Part shown: positions 3 to 29,813 of the stretch, piece by piece | How the letters are laid out: each line of letters starts with the position of its first letter | Numbering within the stretch: the stretch's first letter is position 1 | Origin: an uncultured Roseiflexus sp. | GTDB taxonomy: Bacteria; Chloroflexota; Chloroflexia; Chloroflexales; Roseiflexaceae | Direction: 5' to 3' | Length of the DNA stretch: 53,339 nucleotides | NCBI GenBank assembly: GCA_937935075.1 | Contig: CALGYB010000033.1 | Location: 1 to 53,339 of the forward strand | Translations under genes and position numbers: made by a program | Notes under the pieces: model-generated | The model's database searches: none | What the model was told of the DNA's origin: nothing | What the model saw: the letters and a program-made list of their open reading frames with translations, nothing else

Positions 3-641
3 GCGACACGCACGCCGACAGCGACTGCCGAACCGACCGCCGTCGCCGAACCGACGGCGACGCGCACGGCATCGCCCAGCCGCACGCCGACGGCGACGCG
101 CACGGCATCGCCCACCCGCACCCTCTCGCCGACGCGGACGCCGACGGCGACGCGCACGTTACCCCCGACGCGCACGGCATCGCCCACCCGCACCATGCAA
201 CCGGGCAACGCCGCCGGCAGCAGCCGACCGTCGAGCCTGACAGCATCGCCATCATCAGGCGAAAGCGCACAAACGAGAGAAAGCGTCGCTCCTGCCGTCA
301 CCCGTCGTCCGTATGATCATCTGCCCGCCTGGGGTCCCGACGGGTTGCCGACAGCGGCGCCGTTCATTGCTATGGGAGCGCGTGAGCCGTACAGAACGCT
401 GCTCACACCTTCGGCTGCCCCGTCTATTTCACCCATACCGGCGCCGCAACCGACAATCATCGTATCCACAACGACCACATCAGCGGCGCGTGTTGTCGAT
501 TTCCCAATCATCGCCATCAAGATAAGCGCCGGAGTGCTTTTGCTCATCGCTGCCACATGGCTTGCCGTTCGTTCGCTGCGCCGCCAGAAAGCGAACACCT
601 CCGAAAGCGGCGTAGAGGCGGAATGGTTTTACGAGATATGA
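3..641 (+). CDS. C-terminal part of a Thr/Pro-rich surface protein with a membrane anchor (5' end outside window)
   Basis: The frame is open from the window edge to the TGA at 639-641, giving 212 visible residues; the true start lies upstream. Visible residues 1-64 are a degenerate repeat of Thr, Pro, Ala, Arg and Ser (units like TATRTASPTRT), the kind of stiff linker found in secreted proteins. A less repetitive Ser/Thr/Pro stretch follows. A single hydrophobic helix at about visible residues 167-190 is followed by an Arg/Lys cluster (RSLRRQK) and a short acidic tail, so the protein should sit in the membrane with its bulk outside. The ligand-binding or enzymatic part, if any, is outside the window, so no function can be named. 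An internal ATG at 195 opens the same frame, but the repeat continues in frame before it. Confidence 0.75.
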   Translation, partial: ATRTPTATAEPTAVAEPTATRTASPSRTPTATRTASPTRTLSPTRTPTATRTLPPTRTASPTRTMQPGNAAGSSRPSSLTASPSSGESAQTRESVAPAVTRRPYDHLPAWGPDGLPTAAPFIAMGAREPYRTLLTPSAAPSISPIPAPQPTIIVSTTTTSAARVVDFPIIAIKISAGVLLLIAATWLAVRSLRRQKANTSESGVEAEWFYEI

Positions 642-1731: not shown

Positions 1732-1737
1732 ATGCGC

Positions 1738-1830
1738 TGCACCGCGGGGCGGCAGATACTTGCCGAACCCCGCCAGGACCGAGAGGTAGCAACGGTAGGC
1801 GAGTTCCTCTGGGTGTCCCGCGGTGTCACC
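1738..1830 (+). ncRNA. ffs: Signal recognition particle RNA, small bacterial type
   Basis: The conserved domain IV is clear: CGCCAGGACC, then GAGAGGTAGCAACGGTAG, with the tetraloop and asymmetric-loop bases that bind Ffh. The ends pair: CACCGCGGGG near 1739-1748 is complementary to the CCCGCGGTG segment at 1817-1825, closing a hairpin of about 93 bases. This RNA binds the Ffh M domain and FtsY during co-translational membrane targeting. It has its own promoter, and a rho-independent terminator follows directly. Confidence 0.92.
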
Positions 1831-1831
1831 A

Positions 1832-1854
1832 CCGGCGCAAGGCGTCGGTTTTTT
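1832..1854 (+). terminator. Rho-independent terminator of the SRP RNA gene
   Basis: A seven-pair stem, CCGGCGC (1832-1838) with GCGTCGG (1842-1848), has one G-U pair and a three-base loop, and is followed by six T (1849-1854). Confidence 0.85.
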
Positions 1855-1865
1855 ATGAAGACCGG

Positions 1866-2303
1866 TCAACTGCACAACTCGATGGCGCGGCGTCCTAACT
1901 CGCGAATATCCTCGGAAATATCAGGATCATCGAGTTCATCCCAAGTGACCCAGCGCGCTGCTTGCACTTCGCGTTCGGCGGTCGTCAGTTCGCCGTTGCG
2001 CACCCGCGCGAAGTAGATCAGATCGATATGTTGATGCCCTGGCGTAATGTCTTCGAGCAGGATGCAGTAGGGTTGTGGCAGCACGCGCACCTCGCCGAGG
2101 ATGCTGCCGCTCGTCAGCAGTTCCACCTCAAGCCCGGCTTCTTCGCGCACCTCGCGGATGGCCGCCTCGTCGGGCAGTTCGTGCGGGTCGATGTGTCCGC
2201 CGGGCGGCAGCCACTTCCCTAACTTTCGGTGCAGGAGCAGTAAGGTTCGCCGTTCGTGGACAACGAACGTCGTGGCAGTGAAATCGCGGGTGATGTCTGA
2301 CAT
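1866..2303 (-). CDS. Nudix hydrolase
   Basis: A 145-residue Nudix protein. The Nudix box GX5EX7REUXEEXGU is complete at residues 36-58 (G36, E42, REVREEAGL from 50), which supplies the metal ligands for hydrolysing nucleoside diphosphates linked to another group. The N-terminal FVVHERRTLLLLHRKLGKW and the PPGG before the box resemble the MutT-like, NTP- or sugar-nucleotide-cleaving branch, but the substrate cannot be assigned. The ATG at 2303 is preceded by CAGGGAAC. A palindromic TAGTATACTA at 2340-2349 contains a plausible minus-strand -10 (TATACT). The gene converges on the SRP RNA gene, whose terminator lies 11 bases from this stop codon. Confidence 0.88.
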   Translation of the reverse strand: MSDITRDFTATTFVVHERRTLLLLHRKLGKWLPPGGHIDPHELPDEAAIREVREEAGLEVELLTSGSILGEVRVLPQPYCILLEDITPGHQHIDLIYFARVRNGELTTAEREVQAARWVTWDELDDPDISEDIRELGRRAIELCS

Positions 2304-2394
2304 GGCATGTTCCCTGGTAATACTGCTGTTTCGAGAGGGTAGTATACTATACGGCGACAGGCATTCCTGGGTATGCAGCAGGACCGTTAGCGTA

Positions 2395-2424
2395 TAGACG
2401 GGCGTGATGCATGTGGGTTATAAT
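2395..2424 (+). promoter_or_regulatory. Candidate promoter of rsbS-rsbT
   Basis: TAGACG (2395-2400) and a perfect TATAAT (2419-2424) are 18 bases apart. The leader to the rsbS start would be about 120 bases. The -10 box is convincing; the -35 is weak. Confidence 0.5.
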
Positions 2425-2552
2425 TGGCAGTTGTCTGGCGCCGCAATCGCCGTCAACTTCGTGTCGCATCGTTATTCGGGTTCATGTTTGTTCACCTGCT
2501 CTGGCAACCCTGAGAGACCAGGACCATCCCCGCGCAGGTTGAGGAGGGATCG

Positions 2553-2936
2553 TTGGAAAGCTTCAGAATACCCATTCTGAAGATCGGCGATGTGCTGATC
2601 GCCTCGATTCAGGTGGCGTTGCACGATGCGTCTGCGGTGCAGTTCAAGGACGATCTGCTGCAAAAAATCTACGACACCAAAGCGCGAGGTCTGATCGTCG
2701 ATCTTACCGCTGTTGATGTGGTTGACAGTTTTATCGGGCGTCTGATCAGCGACATCGCTTCGATGGCCGGCCTGATGGGGACGAAGGTTGTCATTACCGG
2801 TCTTCAGCCGGCTGTTGCCATCACACTGGTGGAATTGGGGCTGGAACTAACCGGTGTGATGACTGCGCTCAATCTCGAGAAAGGTCTGGCAATGCTCCGC
2901 CGACAGGCTGAGGAGGACGCCGATGGCACAGGCTAA
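2553..2936 (+). CDS. rsbS: RsbS-like STAS-domain anti-sigma antagonist
   Basis: A 127-residue single STAS domain. The TTG start at 2553 is supported by GAGGAGGG at 2541-2548; there is no ATG alternative near the conserved N-terminus. The phospho-acceptor serine is S59 in DVVDSFIGRL, the same position as the serine of Bacillus RsbS. In characterised stressosomes RsbS forms the core with RsbR and holds the kinase RsbT until stress triggers phosphorylation. Here it overlaps rsbT by 14 bases, so the two are translationally coupled. No RsbR, RsbU, RsbX or sigma factor gene is adjacent, so the downstream target is not visible. Confidence 0.87.
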   Translation: MESFRIPILKIGDVLIASIQVALHDASAVQFKDDLLQKIYDTKARGLIVDLTAVDVVDSFIGRLISDIASMAGLMGTKVVITGLQPAVAITLVELGLELTGVMTALNLEKGLAMLRRQAEEDADGTG

Positions 2937-3324
2937 GGTTGCGCCGATCCGTAGCGACCTCGATATCGTGATCGCTCGCACCCTTGCCCGTGATACTGCA
3001 AAGGCGCTCGGCTTCGGTGCGATTGATCAGGCGCGTATTGCAACCGCTGTCAGTGAACTGGCGCGGAATATCTTTCTCTATGCCGGTACCGGCACCGTAA
3101 CCATTCGCGAAATTGAGCGCGGCGGGCGGAAAGGGATCGAAATCATCTGCGAAGACCAGGGACCTGGCATCGCAGATATCGATCTCGTCATGCAGGATGG
3201 CTACAGCACGTCGCGCGGCATGGGGATGGGGTTGCCCGGCGCGAAGCGATTGATGGACGAATTCGATATTAAGTCCGCCGAAGGGCAGGGAACGATCATC
3301 CACTGCCGGAAGTGGCGCACCTGA
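2923..3324 (+). CDS. rsbT: RsbT-like serine kinase (anti-sigma regulatory factor)
   Basis: A 133-residue GHKL ATPase of the RsbT/RsbW type. The N box (SELARNIFLYA, N49), the G1 box (DQGPGI) and the G2 box (STSRGMGMGLPG) are intact, so ATP binding and phosphorylation of the RsbS serine are expected. The short Gly-rich ATP lid and the GTIIHCRKW ending match RsbT rather than RsbW. It overlaps rsbS. In known systems RsbT released from the stressosome activates a PP2C phosphatase or a diguanylate cyclase; neither lies nearby. Confidence 0.87.
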   Translation: MAQAKVAPIRSDLDIVIARTLARDTAKALGFGAIDQARIATAVSELARNIFLYAGTGTVTIREIERGGRKGIEIICEDQGPGIADIDLVMQDGYSTSRGMGMGLPGAKRLMDEFDIKSAEGQGTIIHCRKWRT

Positions 3325-3641
3325 CCGGATACAGTCCAGAAGAACGAAGCGCCGACGAGTCGTCAACCTGCACAACTCGCCGGCGCTTAATTGTGAGAGA
3401 GTGTTGTTGCTTCTCTGATAGAGCGATCAGCCGGGTGTCGCCCAATTATTGCCCGTAGTGACCATCTTGCGGCTGACGTTGGCTGAGCGTCCAAAACGTC
3501 GCCAAAGCGACGCTCTCATCGTTTTTGCCGCGGTGACCGTCTTGCGGCCAACGTTGGCTGAGCCTGTCGAAGCCAACGTCAGCCGCTCCATGTCCTTGAT
3601 TGATTGTCCAGGTTGTGGGCGATCGCTCTATCAGGAGCCTG
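3325..3641. other. Gene-free stretch rich in inverted repeats
   Basis: This 317-base gap between convergent genes has no convincing coding frame. It holds one and a half copies of the palindromic repeat described separately at 3469-3586. A second small inverted repeat, GAGCGTC/GACGCTC, lies around 3485-3515. Confidence 0.5.
3469..3586. repeat. Palindromic interspersed repeat, copy 1 (one and a half units)
   Basis: A left arm GCGGCTGACGTTGGCT occurs at 3469-3484. A full hairpin follows at 3544-3586 with left arm GCGGCCAACGTTGGCT, loop GAGCCTGTCGA and right arm AGCCAACGTCAGCCGC. The first left arm is a perfect complement of this right arm, while the second left arm has two mismatches. The flanks (GTGACCATCTTGCGG, TTGATTGTCCAGG and GCGATCGCTCTAT) recur at copy 2 near 5.1 kb. 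Confidence 0.8.
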
Positions 3642-4001
3642 TTACCCTTGTGCCCTGGCGAGGCGCTCGATCCGGTTGAGCAGATCGCTGATTTCAAACG
3701 GTTTGAGCATATGATCGTCGGCGCCGGCGGCGCGACTGCGCTCGATATCGATGGCTTCGGCGCGCACCGACAGAACAATGATCGGCACGGAACGCCGCGC
3801 CTTGATCTGCCGGCAGACTTCCCAACCATCCAGATATGGCAGATTGATGTCGAGCACGATCAGATCCGGCCGATGTTCGGCTTCACGCTGAAGCGCCTCC
3901 ATGCCATTACGGGCAACGATAATATCGTGACCTTCAGCGATCAGGACACGCTGCACCAGCTCAAGGATGTCACGATTGTCATCGACAATGAGAATGCGCA
4001 T
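3642..4001 (-). CDS. Single-domain response regulator (CheY-like receiver)
   Basis: A 119-residue receiver with no output domain. The acidic pair is D7-D8, the phospho-acceptor is D51 in VLDINLP, the Thr/Ser switch residue is S78 (VLSVRAE) and the conserved lysine is K100 (MLKPF). Such proteins relay phosphate within a phosphorelay or act by protein contact. No histidine kinase is adjacent, so the partner is unknown. The proximity to rsbS-rsbT, in convergent orientation, is not evidence for a shared pathway. Confidence 0.88.
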   Translation of the reverse strand: MRILIVDDNRDILELVQRVLIAEGHDIIVARNGMEALQREAEHRPDLIVLDINLPYLDGWEVCRQIKARRSVPIIVLSVRAEAIDIERSRAAGADDHMLKPFEISDLLNRIERLARAQG

Positions 4002-8210: not shown

Positions 8211-8225
8211 TCATAGACTACGCAT

Positions 8226-8324
8226 TGCATTCCCTACGCTGGCATGACCCAGGTCAGGTTCGGAGGGTCAGCGGCATCGTCGGGCCGCACTCTCAGCCAG
8301 GCTCACCTGGCTCCCCTAGCTACG
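8226..8324 (-). promoter_or_regulatory. TPP riboswitch (THI box)
   Basis: Read on the minus strand, the conserved aptamer elements are present in order: TAGGGGAGCC, GGCTGAGAGTGCGG, ACCCTCCGAACCTGACC and GGGTCATGCCAGCGTAGGGAA. CTGAGA is the pyrimidine-binding loop, and the ACCTGA/GCCAGCG arms hold the diphosphate. It precedes an intrinsic terminator and the thiamine-precursor uptake genes. The expected logic is that thiamine diphosphate binds and shuts off transport. Confidence 0.95.
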
Positions 8325-8356
8325 CCGTGCACGGCGCTATCGGTTGTTAAGCGTAA

Positions 8357-12835: not shown

Positions 12836-12877
12836 ACAGGCAGCCGCTGTGCTGCCTGTGCAACAGGCGCTATTATA
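12836..12877 (-). promoter_or_regulatory. Promoter -10 and leader hairpin of the tandem permease operon
   Basis: A minus-strand TATAAT lies at 12877-12872; no good -35 is visible. Downstream, ACAGGCAGC (12836-12844) and GCTGCCTGT (12851-12859) form a nine-pair hairpin in the leader. The gap 12771-13181 otherwise holds the opposing promoter and leader of the pseudouridine synthase gene. Confidence 0.5.
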
Positions 12878-12932
12878 CTACTGACAGAGATGGACTCGTT
12901 CTTCGCGGTTCGCAGGTTTGGCAAACATGTAG

Positions 12933-13181
12933 TATAATACGAGAAGTCCACACTTCATTGCTCCTCGTCGGAATGAAGTAGCGAGACCTGCTGTGATAAT
13001 CCCCCGGCGCAGAGCCGCAGGGAAGCAAAGAAACATCCACAAGAGTGGCGCGTCCGTTTATCGGTAAGCAGAAAGCGGCTTGACGATCAATCTTTGTCGT
13101 GAGACCGGCGTTTTCTCCAGACGCCCCATTGCGCCGGGATACTGCAACTGAACGTCCGCGTGGTGAGGAGACAATTCAATC
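12933..13181 (+). promoter_or_regulatory. Promoter -10 and unusually long leader of the pseudouridine synthase gene
   Basis: A perfect TATAAT at 12933-12938 faces the gene, leaving a leader of about 235 bases. It contains several G/C-rich segments (for example CCCCCGGCGCAGAGCCGCAGGG near 13003-13024) but matches no riboswitch class I can recognise. The ribosome site GGTGAGGAG lies at 13162-13170. Confidence 0.4.
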
Positions 13182-14861
13182 TTGAGTGCAGAACGATTGC
13201 AGAAAGTGCTGGCAAGCGCCGGCATTGCGTCGCGGCGTGACTGTGAAGAGTACATCGCCGCAGGACGGGTTATGGTCAATGGCAAAGTGGTCCGCATCCC
13301 CGGTACACGCGTGGACCCGGAGCACGATGAGATCTTCGTCGATGGAAAGCCGATCGGTAAGATTCACCACCGCACCTATGTGATGCTCCACAAGCCGGCG
13401 GGTGTGGTCTCGACGACCGATGATCCGCAGGGTCGCCCGACGGTGGTTGATCTGGTCAATCTTGAACAACGATTGTTCCCCGTGGGTCGGCTCGATTACG
13501 ATTCGGAAGGATTGCTGCTGTTGACAGACGATGGCGAATTGACCCAGAAGTTGACCCACCCCAGCTACCAGGTCGAGAAAGAGTATCGGGTCCTGTTAGA
13601 CGACGCCCCCTCGCCGAATGCGCTGCGCGCCTGGCGCTCCGGCGTCGAACTGGACGGTGTGAAAACGGCGCCGGCCTGGGTCGAACTGATTGAACGCACA
13701 CCCGAAGGAGCGTGGGTGCGCGTGATTTTACACGAGGGGCGCAAGCGCCAGATCCGCGAAGTGGCGCGATTGCTCGGATATGAGGTGCGGCGGTTGATCC
13801 GTGTGCGCGAAGGTCCGCTGACTCTGGGAGACCTTCCAAGCGGTACGTGGCGCTTTCTTACAGACGAAGAGGTTGACATGTTACGAGAACACGCCGAACG
13901 AAGCGTGGCGGTCGCCGATGCGGAACAGCCGCGTCAGCGCGAACAGGACGAAACAAAAGCCGCTGGCGGTCGACGGTTGCGGCGTATCAATCCGTCAGCG
14001 CGGTTGTTGCAGAAAGGTGAAAGAGTGACAGAGACGGCTCTGCCCGAACTCGATGAAGCGATTGGCGCAGAGGAAGGTCTTCCGCCGGTCGTTGAAGAAG
14101 GGCATAAGGTGCACGACAAAGAGGTCGTCCGTCGTGATGTCCCTCCATCGCGCGACGTCCGGCGCGACGAGCGGGGTGGCGGGTACCGGAGCGAGCGCCG
14201 CGACGAGCAGGGTGGCGGCTACCGGAGTGAGCGCCGCGATGAGCGGAGTGGTCCACGCGACGTCCGGCGTGACGAGCGGAGTGGCGGCTACCGGAGCGAA
14301 CGACGCGACGAGCGCGGGAGTGGTCCGCGCGACGTCCGGCGTGACGAGCGGAGTGGCGGCTACCGGAGCGAGCGCCGCGACGAGCGCAGTGGGAGCGGGC
14401 CGCGCGATTTCCGGCGCGACGAGCGCGGGAGTGGTCCGCGCGACGTCCGGCGTGACGAGCGGAGTGGCGGCTACCGGAGCGAGCGGCGTGATGAGCGGAG
14501 TGGCGGCTACCGGAGTGAACGCCGTGATGAGCGCAGTGGGAGTGGGCCGCGCGATTTCCGGCGCGACGAGCGGGGTGGCGGGTACCGGAGTGAGCGCCGC
14601 GATGAGCGCAGTGGGAGTGGACCACGCGACTTCCGGCGTGACGAGCGCGGGAGTGGACCGCGCGATTTCCGGCGCGATGAGCGGAGTGGCGACTACCGGA
14701 GCGAGCGGCGCGACGAGCGGAGTGGGAGCGGGCCGCGCGATTTCCGGCGCGACGAGCGGAGTGGCGGCTACCGGGGTGAGCGCCGCAACGAGCGCGGGTC
14801 GGGAGGCTTTTCGCGCAACGACCGCCCTGCACCGCGCTACTCCGAAGATGATGAGGAATAA
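13182..14861 (+). CDS. rluB: RluB-type 23S rRNA pseudouridine synthase with a long Arg-rich repeat tail
   Basis: A 559-residue protein. The TTG at 13182 is the only start that keeps the whole S4 domain; GGTGAGGAG lies 11 bases upstream. Residues 1-60 form the S4 RNA-binding domain (RLQKVLASAGIASRRDCEEY). Residues 65-235 form the RsuA/RluB/E/F synthase domain with the catalytic Asp in GRLDYDSEGLLLLTDDG and the RKRQIREVARLLG motif. The family turns a uridine of 23S rRNA helix 89 into pseudouridine. A charged linker leads to residues from about 325 onward, a repeat of RRDERSGGYRSE-like units ending in an acidic tail. The tail is over 200 residues, far longer than in typical RluB. The repeats keep two other frames open, which are not real genes. 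A strong terminator follows. Confidence 0.88.
   Translation: MSAERLQKVLASAGIASRRDCEEYIAAGRVMVNGKVVRIPGTRVDPEHDEIFVDGKPIGKIHHRTYVMLHKPAGVVSTTDDPQGRPTVVDLVNLEQRLFPVGRLDYDSEGLLLLTDDGELTQKLTHPSYQVEKEYRVLLDDAPSPNALRAWRSGVELDGVKTAPAWVELIERTPEGAWVRVILHEGRKRQIREVARLLGYEVRRLIRVREGPLTLGDLPSGTWRFLTDEEVDMLREHAERSVAVADAEQPRQREQDETKAAGGRRLRRINPSARLLQKGERVTETALPELDEAIGAEEGLPPVVEEGHKVHDKEVVRRDVPPSRDVRRDERGGGYRSERRDEQGGGYRSERRDERSGPRDVRRDERSGGYRSERRDERGSGPRDVRRDERSGGYRSERRDERSGSGPRDFRRDERGSGPRDVRRDERSGGYRSERRDERSGGYRSERRDERSGSGPRDFRRDERGGGYRSERRDERSGSGPRDFRRDERGSGPRDFRRDERSGDYRSERRDERSGSGPRDFRRDERSGGYRGERRNERGSGGFSRNDRPAPRYSEDDEE
14150..14815 (+). repeat. Degenerate tandem repeat inside the pseudouridine synthase gene
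   Basis: About 36- and 39-base units alternate. One encodes RRDERSGGYRSE and the other RRDERSGSGPRDF or RRDERGSGPRDV. Roughly twenty RDER/RDEQ cores are present. Units differ mainly at silent positions and in Ser/Gly number, as expected for expansion and contraction by recombination. Confidence 0.85.
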
Positions 14862-14877
14862 CCCTGCTTGGCGCAAC

Positions 14878-14922
<45 letters not shown>

Positions 14923-14925
14923 CTA

Positions 14926-15564
14926 TCAGTTCGTTGAGCGAGGGGTGGCAAAAACCTGCGTCCAGTACCTTCCGTATGAACCGCCGTCAGCGTAGGCGAC
15001 GCCGATCTCGCGTAAATTGCAGTTCAGCATATTTGCCCGGTGCCCTGAACTGCTATACCATCCCTGCACCACCTGTTCGGCAGTGCGATACCCGGCTGCA
15101 ATGTTTTCGGCTGCCGTTGAATATGTATACCCCGTGCGTCGGATGCGATCCCAGGGAGTGGACCCATCCGATCCAGTGTGGCTGAAGAAATTGTTTGTCG
15201 CCATATCCTGACTGTGCGCAGCAGCAGCGGTTGTCAGCTGCGGCGAGACCGTCAGCGGGGCGCATCCTGCCGCCACACGATGCTGATTCGTCAGATCGAC
15301 GACCTGCTGGGCAAGCGATGGTAGCGTGTCCGCGCCGCTGTTACCGGTTGTGCCTGGCACGCTAACAAGCGGCAGGTAAACCCTCGTTGTCGCTGCTGGC
15401 GCAATGGCGCTTTCGGCAGACACAGATATCGCTGCATCCGTGTCTGTTGCTGGTTCGCCAATGTCATCAGGGGGAGCGACGGTCGTCTGAGCAGAGAGCG
15501 TGAGCGGTATCAGACTCAGTGACACGGCTATGATGAGAACTGCGATGCGATATGGTAAAGACAT
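14926..15564 (-). CDS. Secreted CAP-domain (SCP/PR1-like) protein
   Basis: A 212-residue exported protein: a signal peptide (MSLPYRIAVLIIAVSLSLIPLTLSA), a Thr/Ala-rich linker that includes TTRVYLPLVSVPG, then a CAP domain from about residue 85. Its cavity residues are visible: HSQDMATNNFFSHTG (His), ENIAAGY (Glu) and GHRANMLN (His). Bacterial CAP proteins are extracellular, with roles proposed in lipid binding or wall interaction; none is established for this group. It converges on the pseudouridine synthase gene, with the terminator between them. Confidence 0.87.
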   Translation of the reverse strand: MSLPYRIAVLIIAVSLSLIPLTLSAQTTVAPPDDIGEPATDTDAAISVSAESAIAPAATTRVYLPLVSVPGTTGNSGADTLPSLAQQVVDLTNQHRVAAGCAPLTVSPQLTTAAAAHSQDMATNNFFSHTGSDGSTPWDRIRRTGYTYSTAAENIAAGYRTAEQVVQGWYSSSGHRANMLNCNLREIGVAYADGGSYGRYWTQVFATPRSTN

Positions 15565-29636: not shown

Positions 29637-29813
29637 TACGAGAAACGCAAGGCGTGAGGCAAGTGGGGTTCAGACGGGAAGGTTGCACGTGGTGCGCCTG
29701 GTTCCCGGTTCTGAGTTCTCAGTTCTCGGTTCTGGGTTCTCAGTTCCCGGTTCTGAGTTCTCAGTTCCCGGTTCTCCTCCCGGCTGATACATGTGAAAGG
29801 ATAGTGCCATTTT
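29637..29813 (+). other. Gap before the D-lactate dehydrogenase gene
   Basis: The gap contains the simple tandem repeat at 29700-29776 and then a short spacer with GTGAAAGGATAG, which gives a ribosome site for the next ATG at 29814. Confidence 0.5.
29700..29776 (+). repeat. Tandem repeat of GTTCTCAGTTC(C/T)CG type
   Basis: About five to six units of a 14-base pattern built from GGTTCTGAGTTCTCAGTTC and GGTTCTC lie end to end. The units differ at one or two bases. It is not coding. Confidence 0.8.

Follow-up and report, generated by a model that had tools for sequence, protein, structure and literature searches.

Here we report that an rRNA pseudouridine synthase of the RsuA/RluB family, encoded by an uncultured Roseiflexus sp., carries a long arginine-rich mixed-charge repeat tail, and that such tails occur across the order Chloroflexales, with their composition kept through complete replacement of the repeat unit. 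The gene was studied within a window of 53,339 nucleotides (the whole stretch of DNA that was analysed), and its tail was compared with those of relatives in the order, in the phylum and beyond. Bacterial Arg-rich low-complexity regions and short disordered extensions of RluB and RluF are already known, as described in the accessible parts of PMC6821194, PMC9479744 and PMC3919597; a search of the open-access literature returned no description of a long tail on a member of the RsuA/RluB family. We tentatively propose that the tail retains the enzyme at sites of ribosome assembly, a reading to which we give somewhat less than an even chance.

Domain organization and genomic context

The features of the gene are collected in Table 1. 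As the original prediction had it, the catalytic part is ordinary; S4 and PseudoU_synth_2 domains were recognized by Pfam in frame with the tail. The Asp105 residue of the GRLD motif and Tyr135 of the catalytic domain, for which active-site roles are described in the accessible part of PMC3919597, are invariant in nine aligned sequences. The TTG start codon is kept in four Roseiflexus-type proteins of the alignment, and a motif of the RRxxRRI type, like that of the linker, was recognized by eye in relatives from three out of four sampled families of the order. The source contig (contig 33) belongs to a draft genome of 4.85 Mb, in which this enzyme is the single match above the TIGR00093 family cut-off. 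Close relatives of this genome are Roseiflexus metagenome-assembled genomes, and G003 is a closed genome of the same genus (5,801,598 bases).

Table 1. Features of the synthase gene in the window
Feature	Position	Strand	Details
Whole gene, RsuA/RluB/RluE/RluF-family rRNA pseudouridine synthase with long tail	13182..14861	+	TTG start, 559 aa
S4 RNA-binding domain, residues 4-49	13191..13328	+	Pfam PF01479, 54.8 bits (cut-off, 22.8)
PseudoU_synth_2 catalytic domain, residues 66-193	13377..13760	+	Pfam PF00849
Linker, residues 247-323	13920..14150	+	Basic motif GRRLRRINPSARLLQKG, then an acidic stretch; AlphaFold confidence <50 from residue 265
Arg-rich mixed-charge tandem array of 18 units (11-13 aa each)	14151..14795	+	Repeat, motif and charge analyses
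C-terminal cap GSGGFSRNDRPAPRYSEDDEE	14796..14858	+	Alignable within the genus; acidic end

A perfect 11-nt inverted repeat (TATTATACTAC at 12871-12881 and GTAGTATAATA at 12929-12939) lies between a divergent transporter gene and the synthase gene; each arm contains a TATAAT-like box, and the pair may possibly represent two divergent promoters or an operator. Elsewhere in the window, Rfam models identified a TPP riboswitch (8213-8327, minus strand, 65.1 bits) and a bacterial small SRP RNA gene (1736-1832, plus strand, 55.2 bits). An open frame cut by the window start (3-641, plus strand) encodes a Thr/Arg/Pro/Ser repeat, TRTASPTRTPTATRT, followed by a likely membrane segment, and contains tandem DNA repeats at 15-194. 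Another tandem repeat, apparently intergenic, occupies 29701-29776 with a 21-base unit, GTTCCCGGTTCTGAGTTCTCA, or alternatively a 7-base unit.

Assignment of the enzyme within the family

The protein scored 165.6 bits against the RsuA/RluB/RluE/RluF family model TIGR00093 (cut-off, 109.3), and all four single-enzyme models of the family gave scores below their cut-offs (RluB, 146.9/290; RluF, 153.3/318; RsuA, 126.5/275; RluE, 88.3/284). A glutamate at position 135, in the loop 131-138, is reported as specific to RluB, with Asp in RluF (accessible part of PMC3919597); the corresponding residue of the window protein is Gln130, which matches neither enzyme, and Arg138 is replaced by Lys133. RNA complexes of RluB and RluF (4lgt and 3dh3) are the best PDB matches of its AlphaFold model. 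In the tree, the starred RluF and the starred RsuA clades exclude the window protein, and no resolved link joins its clade to E. coli RluB. Since the score lies below the RluB cut-off and the diagnostic glutamate is absent, we assign the protein to the RsuA/RluB family; the earlier designation 'RluB-type' is right at the level of the family only, and would be putative for RluB itself. U2605 is a possible target.

Repeat structure and coding frame of the tail

Tandem Repeats Finder placed the array at 14159-14794 with a period of 36 (the best-scoring row has a period of 222), and the in-frame array begins at residue 324 (window position 14151). The motif RR[DN]E[RQ] occurs 18 times between residues 327 and 534 at a spacing of 11-13 aa, within two main kinds of unit, RRDERSGGYRSE and RRDERSGSGPRDF, which are distinguished by -SGGYRSE versus -SGSGPRD(F/V). 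The longest exact direct repeat within the array is 71 bp, compared with 25 bp from base 15001 to the window end, and the repetitiveness of the array is far above chance. The C-terminal 295 residues (265-559) have AlphaFold pLDDT values below 50, most of the core being modelled with high confidence, and are thus predicted to be intrinsically disordered; no solved structure was matched as resembling the tail. A repeat tail of more than 200 residues on the synthase, as first proposed, is thereby confirmed, with 18 units and disorder by prediction.

Divergence between units at the first, second and third codon positions was 0.10, 0.02 and 0.39 for 18 RRDERx segments, 0.04, 0.04 and 0.22 for nine GGYRSE segments, and 0.06, 0.00 and 0.25 for eight PRDxRRDER segments. 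As the differences between units are concentrated at the third position of codons, the reading frame of the tail is the selected one, and the tail has the appearance of translated coding sequence.

Three other open frames were seen over the array, at 13987-14832 (minus strand), 13995-14894 (minus strand) and 14053-14937 (plus strand), in agreement with the earlier remark that the array keeps antisense and alternative frames open. The openness of the five alternative frames (277, 36, 288, 94 and 290 codons) was compared with that in two sets of 500 shuffles, in which synonymous codons were either dealt anew or drawn from the remainder of the gene. Frames at least as long as observed were obtained in 500, 320, 500, 271 and 44 of the 500 shuffles under the first scheme and in 473, 211, 48, 202 and 232 under the second, the antisense frames with 44 and 48 equally long shuffles coming closest to an excess. 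No Pfam match was found in the alternative frames; being similarly open in the synonymous-codon shuffles, they were rejected as genuine genes, and the openness of the antisense strand follows from composition.

Charge composition of the window tail

The window tail, counted as the 313 residues after the core, is 52% charged with a net charge of +0.04 per residue (R, 0.27; K, 0.01; D+E, 0.24), contains 14% Gly and has Tyr or Phe in most units. Its positive charges are dominated by Arg, with little Lys, and are balanced by Asp/Glu, which is the make-up of arginine-enriched mixed-charge domains; the combination of clustered RGG and net positive charge that marks an RGG box was not found in it, and the tripeptide RGG appears only twice in the unit list. 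None of 500 period-preserving permutations had a local net charge as low as that of the window tail, and among the 30 complete tails described below, charge mixing exceeded such permutations in 17 (5% level) and was not exceptional in 13. With its locally mixed charges and its Gly, Ser and Tyr/Phe residues, the tail is best described as an arginine-rich mixed-charge domain and not as an RGG tail.

Tails across the order

The gene was matched in 47 of the 60 relatives searched in the order (13 had no match). In 46 of the 47 matching genomes the protein continues for 20 residues or more beyond the aligned core, a survey in which the second half of the core was counted as tail at three loci (L053, L054 and L055), because of an insertion in that core; one contig ends inside the core (G025) and another soon after it (G018). 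The tail is present order-wide where the gene reads past the core. The loci L053, L054 and L055 (G018, G021 and G019, respectively, of one genus in the same family) have in common an acidic insertion within the catalytic domain, close to query residue 160 (e.g., DEAGDNDNYDIDEAAAKDE).

The 30 complete tails, two of which come from the phylum search and one of which (L055) is counted with the second half of its core, are 154-581 aa long and contain 0.187-0.308 Arg, 0-0.027 Lys, 0.098-0.253 Asp+Glu and 0.005-0.088 aromatic residues (about 5% on average), with a net charge per residue of +0.029 to +0.116. The Lys/(Arg+Lys) ratio has a mean of 0.039 in the tail and 0.207 in the core, and in all 30 proteins the tail value lies below the core value, so the loss of Lys cannot be put down to G+C content alone; the set spans 53-69% G+C, and genomes at about 53-55% G+C are among those with Lys-poor tails. 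The standard deviation of net charge over the tails is 0.020 in the coding frame versus 0.039-0.074 in the five other frames.

The sequence of the tail is not similarly kept. In four genomes of the same genus, whose cores are 94-97% identical, 45%, 38%, 19% and 7% of the window-tail 6-mers were recovered, and in the five other genomes compared the figure was 0%. Two closed genomes of one other genus (G054 and G045) have cores that are 92% identical and share 0% of tail 6-mers in both directions. A different unit takes over from genus to genus, and even from one congener to another, with composition conserved and sequence not, and the absence of shared 6-mers at similar composition is what would be expected if slippage or recombination repeatedly rewrites the array. 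The number of units, which had been predicted to vary between strains, differs between species, as does the unit sequence. Cores that are 92% identical, followed by tails of similar charge chemistry without a common 6-mer, offer a clean natural experiment on selection for bulk chemistry. Thermophily was also considered as the reason for the tail; some of the tailed relatives (Herpetosiphon) are presumably mesophiles.

Tails outside the order

The phylum search matched 280 of 300 genomes, with tail lengths known only among the matches listed. Seventeen loci outside the order (L072-L088) were chosen for long open frames, with a few class sisters added, and not at random, and four of them carry true C-terminal tails of at least 99 residues (G282, 353; G205, 229; G313, 104; G249, 99 and Lys-rich). 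Twelve others stop 3-43 residues past the aligned core, and in most of these the long frame consisted of free sequence upstream of the start. For comparison, 46 residues follow the aligned core in E. coli RluB and 8-9 in the Lawsonibacter, Spirochaetales and Geobacillus rows. On the 34-row tree, whose deep branches are poorly supported, the tail state requires a minimum of five changes, and similar tails arose elsewhere, in other Chloroflexota and in Paracoccus. The 229-residue tail of G205 (L073) contains a long repeat, RNEARPSRAPYRAGSKPYPRREPFDRSEPNERGGEFHERSG, and 6% Lys, unlike the Lys-poor tails of the order. At another of these loci (L081 in G139; 1977-3506, minus strand), a single frame joins an RsuA/RluB-family synthase to a cytidylate kinase (residues 284-497; Pfam PF02224, 201 bits).

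Sequence searches found no second copy of the tail in G003 or in G000, where the antisense strand of the array itself, with seven stops, gave the sole additional match; one weak match in G042 (E value, 0.003) contains a stop. In a 0.8-Mb sample of the closed genome G003, a loose composition filter passed 15 of 3,167 frames, among which no further tail of such repeats was recognized. By eye these 15 resemble shadow frames rich in His and Gln, and four of them have a repeat index of 0.17-0.22 versus 0.50-0.84 for segments of the window tail.

Alternative explanations for the tail

The tail could be a classical RGG-type region with strong direct RNA binding, or an RNA chaperone that melts or anneals rRNA, possibly with self-driven phase separation. 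Its 27% Arg and 14% Gly, the aromatic residue in most units and a net charge that is slightly positive in all 30 complete tails speak for such a role, and low-complexity regions rich in Arg are over-represented in RNA-binding proteins of bacteria according to the accessible part of PMC6821194. Against it, Asp and Glu (24%) cancel nearly all of the positive charge in the window tail, RGG tripeptides are scarce and the charges are interspersed. In the accessible part of PMC9324279, alternating Arg/Asp peptides did not phase separate and lost their affinity for neighbours, well-mixed Arg/acidic peptides lost affinity for RNA and neighbours in vitro, and in synthetic Arg/Asp tails interspersed charges neutralized each other and weakened this affinity and a positive excess raised condensate entry. 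From what that part of the source describes, one would not by default expect the tail to bind RNA strongly or to phase separate by itself, and we regard this explanation as unlikely. The earlier proposal of an RNA-binding, phase-separating type of tail holds for the richness in Arg; the tail, disordered by prediction, has a near-neutral mixed charge and not a net-positive RGG character.

A second explanation, which seems to us rather improbable, is that the tail is an entropic spacer or a solubilizing appendage: a highly charged chain, neutral overall, that binds no specific partner and serves to keep the enzyme in solution or away from mature ribosomes. A near-neutral, half-charged, well-mixed and disordered chain whose sequence is not conserved between genera would suit such a role; however, Lys should then be as acceptable as Arg, yet it is almost absent from all 30 tails, and the aromatic residues, which are unfavourable to solubility, are kept.

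We hold it to be just as improbable that the array is neutral, i.e., slippage-prone DNA beyond the last essential residue, harmless and with a composition set by G+C content and the founding unit. Repetitiveness, widely differing lengths, fast sequence turnover and the repeated appearance of similar tails would all fit neutrality. The third-position bias among units argues against it, as do the return of the Arg-without-Lys, near-neutral make-up after complete unit replacement across the whole G+C range, the retention of the tail in the members of the order that are readable past the core, and a spread of net charge about two to four times wider in the five other frames.

That the array is an assembly artefact or is read in the wrong frame is exceedingly improbable, since complete tails are carried by the closed single-contig genomes G003, G054, G045 and G047 (378, 326, 289 and 184 residues after the core, respectively), the longest exact repeat of 71 bp allows ordinary reads to span the array, and the frame closes with an acidic cap alignable genus-wide, even though a contig ends inside the tail in 16 of 47 relatives and N gaps occur in two more. 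By a uniform model with rounded contig counts, 2.4 contig ends would be expected for a tail of 1,100 bases and 3.6 for 1,700 bases. Short-read assemblies do struggle at the tail, and the gene is in consequence often truncated in draft genomes.

A possible role in retention at ribosome-assembly sites

The explanation that we favour, with the reservation stated at the outset, is that the tail is a low-affinity multivalent retention device selected for its bulk chemistry: Arg over Lys, near neutrality, interspersed charges, Gly/Ser spacers and Tyr/Phe in most units. Such a chain could make weak, many-pronged contacts, by Arg with RNA phosphates and bases and between Arg and Tyr, that would retain the enzyme on nascent pre-50S particles or in RNA-rich assembly foci, with site specificity provided by the S4 and catalytic domains. 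Because no particular sequence would be read, repeat slippage and recombination could rewrite the unit with function kept. We infer the step from tail chemistry to retention.

An analogous case is provided by PDB entry 9cl9, 'WT 12C IM fraction, B-b3 with RluB bound', in which 278 residues are modelled of a chain corresponding to E. coli 1-283, so most of the RluB extension that was deleted for crystallization is built on the particle. Judging from the entry title, this particle would be a ribosome-assembly intermediate, which suggests that extensions of the RsuA/RluB family may touch the assembling subunit and makes the anchoring on pre-ribosomes first put forward for this tail plausible by analogy. 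According to the accessible part of PMC11194073, RluB is present in the precursor particles that accumulate without RlmE. On the other side, the extension of E. coli RluB, at 46 aa, is short, and it is basic (+0.22) where the Roseiflexus-type tail is nearly neutral, so 9cl9 serves as an analogy only. The loss of affinity of well-mixed Arg/acidic peptides in vitro and the 13 tails with unexceptional charge mixing also count against retention. In the accessible part of PMC11194073, moreover, re-expression of RluB did not relieve the growth or assembly defect of an E. coli strain lacking ten enzymes, a result that counts against a strong role. As no partner of the tail was found in G000 or G003, and no second tail in 0.8 Mb of G003, a network of like tails is not supported.

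A more far-reaching form of this explanation, for which we see only a slim chance, is that in this order the Arg-not-Lys mixed-charge tail is an address tag that places the enzyme in an assembly compartment, by the same physical grammar that eukaryotic proteins with arginine-enriched mixed-charge domains (R-MCDs) employ for nuclear speckles, with chemistry alone being read. If true, this would explain the wholesale replacement of letters between sister species. In either form, the idea that a bacterial arginine mixed-charge domain acts in ribosome biogenesis can be tested directly on this protein.

Comparison with known systems

E. coli RluB, the 23S Psi2605 synthase, and RluF have the same S4 and catalytic architecture and C-terminal extensions of about 40 residues. 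The accessible part of PMC3919597 describes the RluB crystal construct as ending at residue 251, with the last 40 residues predicted to be disordered, and the RluF extension as disordered and invisible in the crystal. The RluB extension differs from the window tail in being short past the aligned core, basic and non-repetitive.

A repeat tail on an enzyme of the RsuA/RluB family was also found in Paracoccus pantotrophus, an alphaproteobacterium and thus of a different phylum, where a locus of pPAN3 (L118; about 2501-3901, plus strand) encodes S4 and PseudoU_synth_2 domains and, after them, a repeat tail of 250 aa in which R, E, D, G and F are abundant. This tail is of independent origin and contains 11% Lys, with the unit GERKPFARRED. 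The DEAD-box helicases of the order (L095 in G003, L094 in G042, L093 in G045 and L096 in G000) have, past the helicase core, tails or linkers that are short, rich in Arg and also contain acidic residues, but they lack long tandem arrays and are richer in His, Ala and Thr; Arg/Ser-rich low-complexity regions have been linked to bacterial DEAD-box helicases in the accessible part of PMC9479744.

The R-MCD proteins, as described in the accessible part of PMC9324279, share with the window tail Arg with interspersed acidic residues, a near-neutral to slightly positive charge and low complexity. They are eukaryotic, whereas the window protein is a bacterial rRNA-modifying enzyme, known from sequence alone, whose tail is rich in Gly and regularly punctuated by Tyr/Phe.
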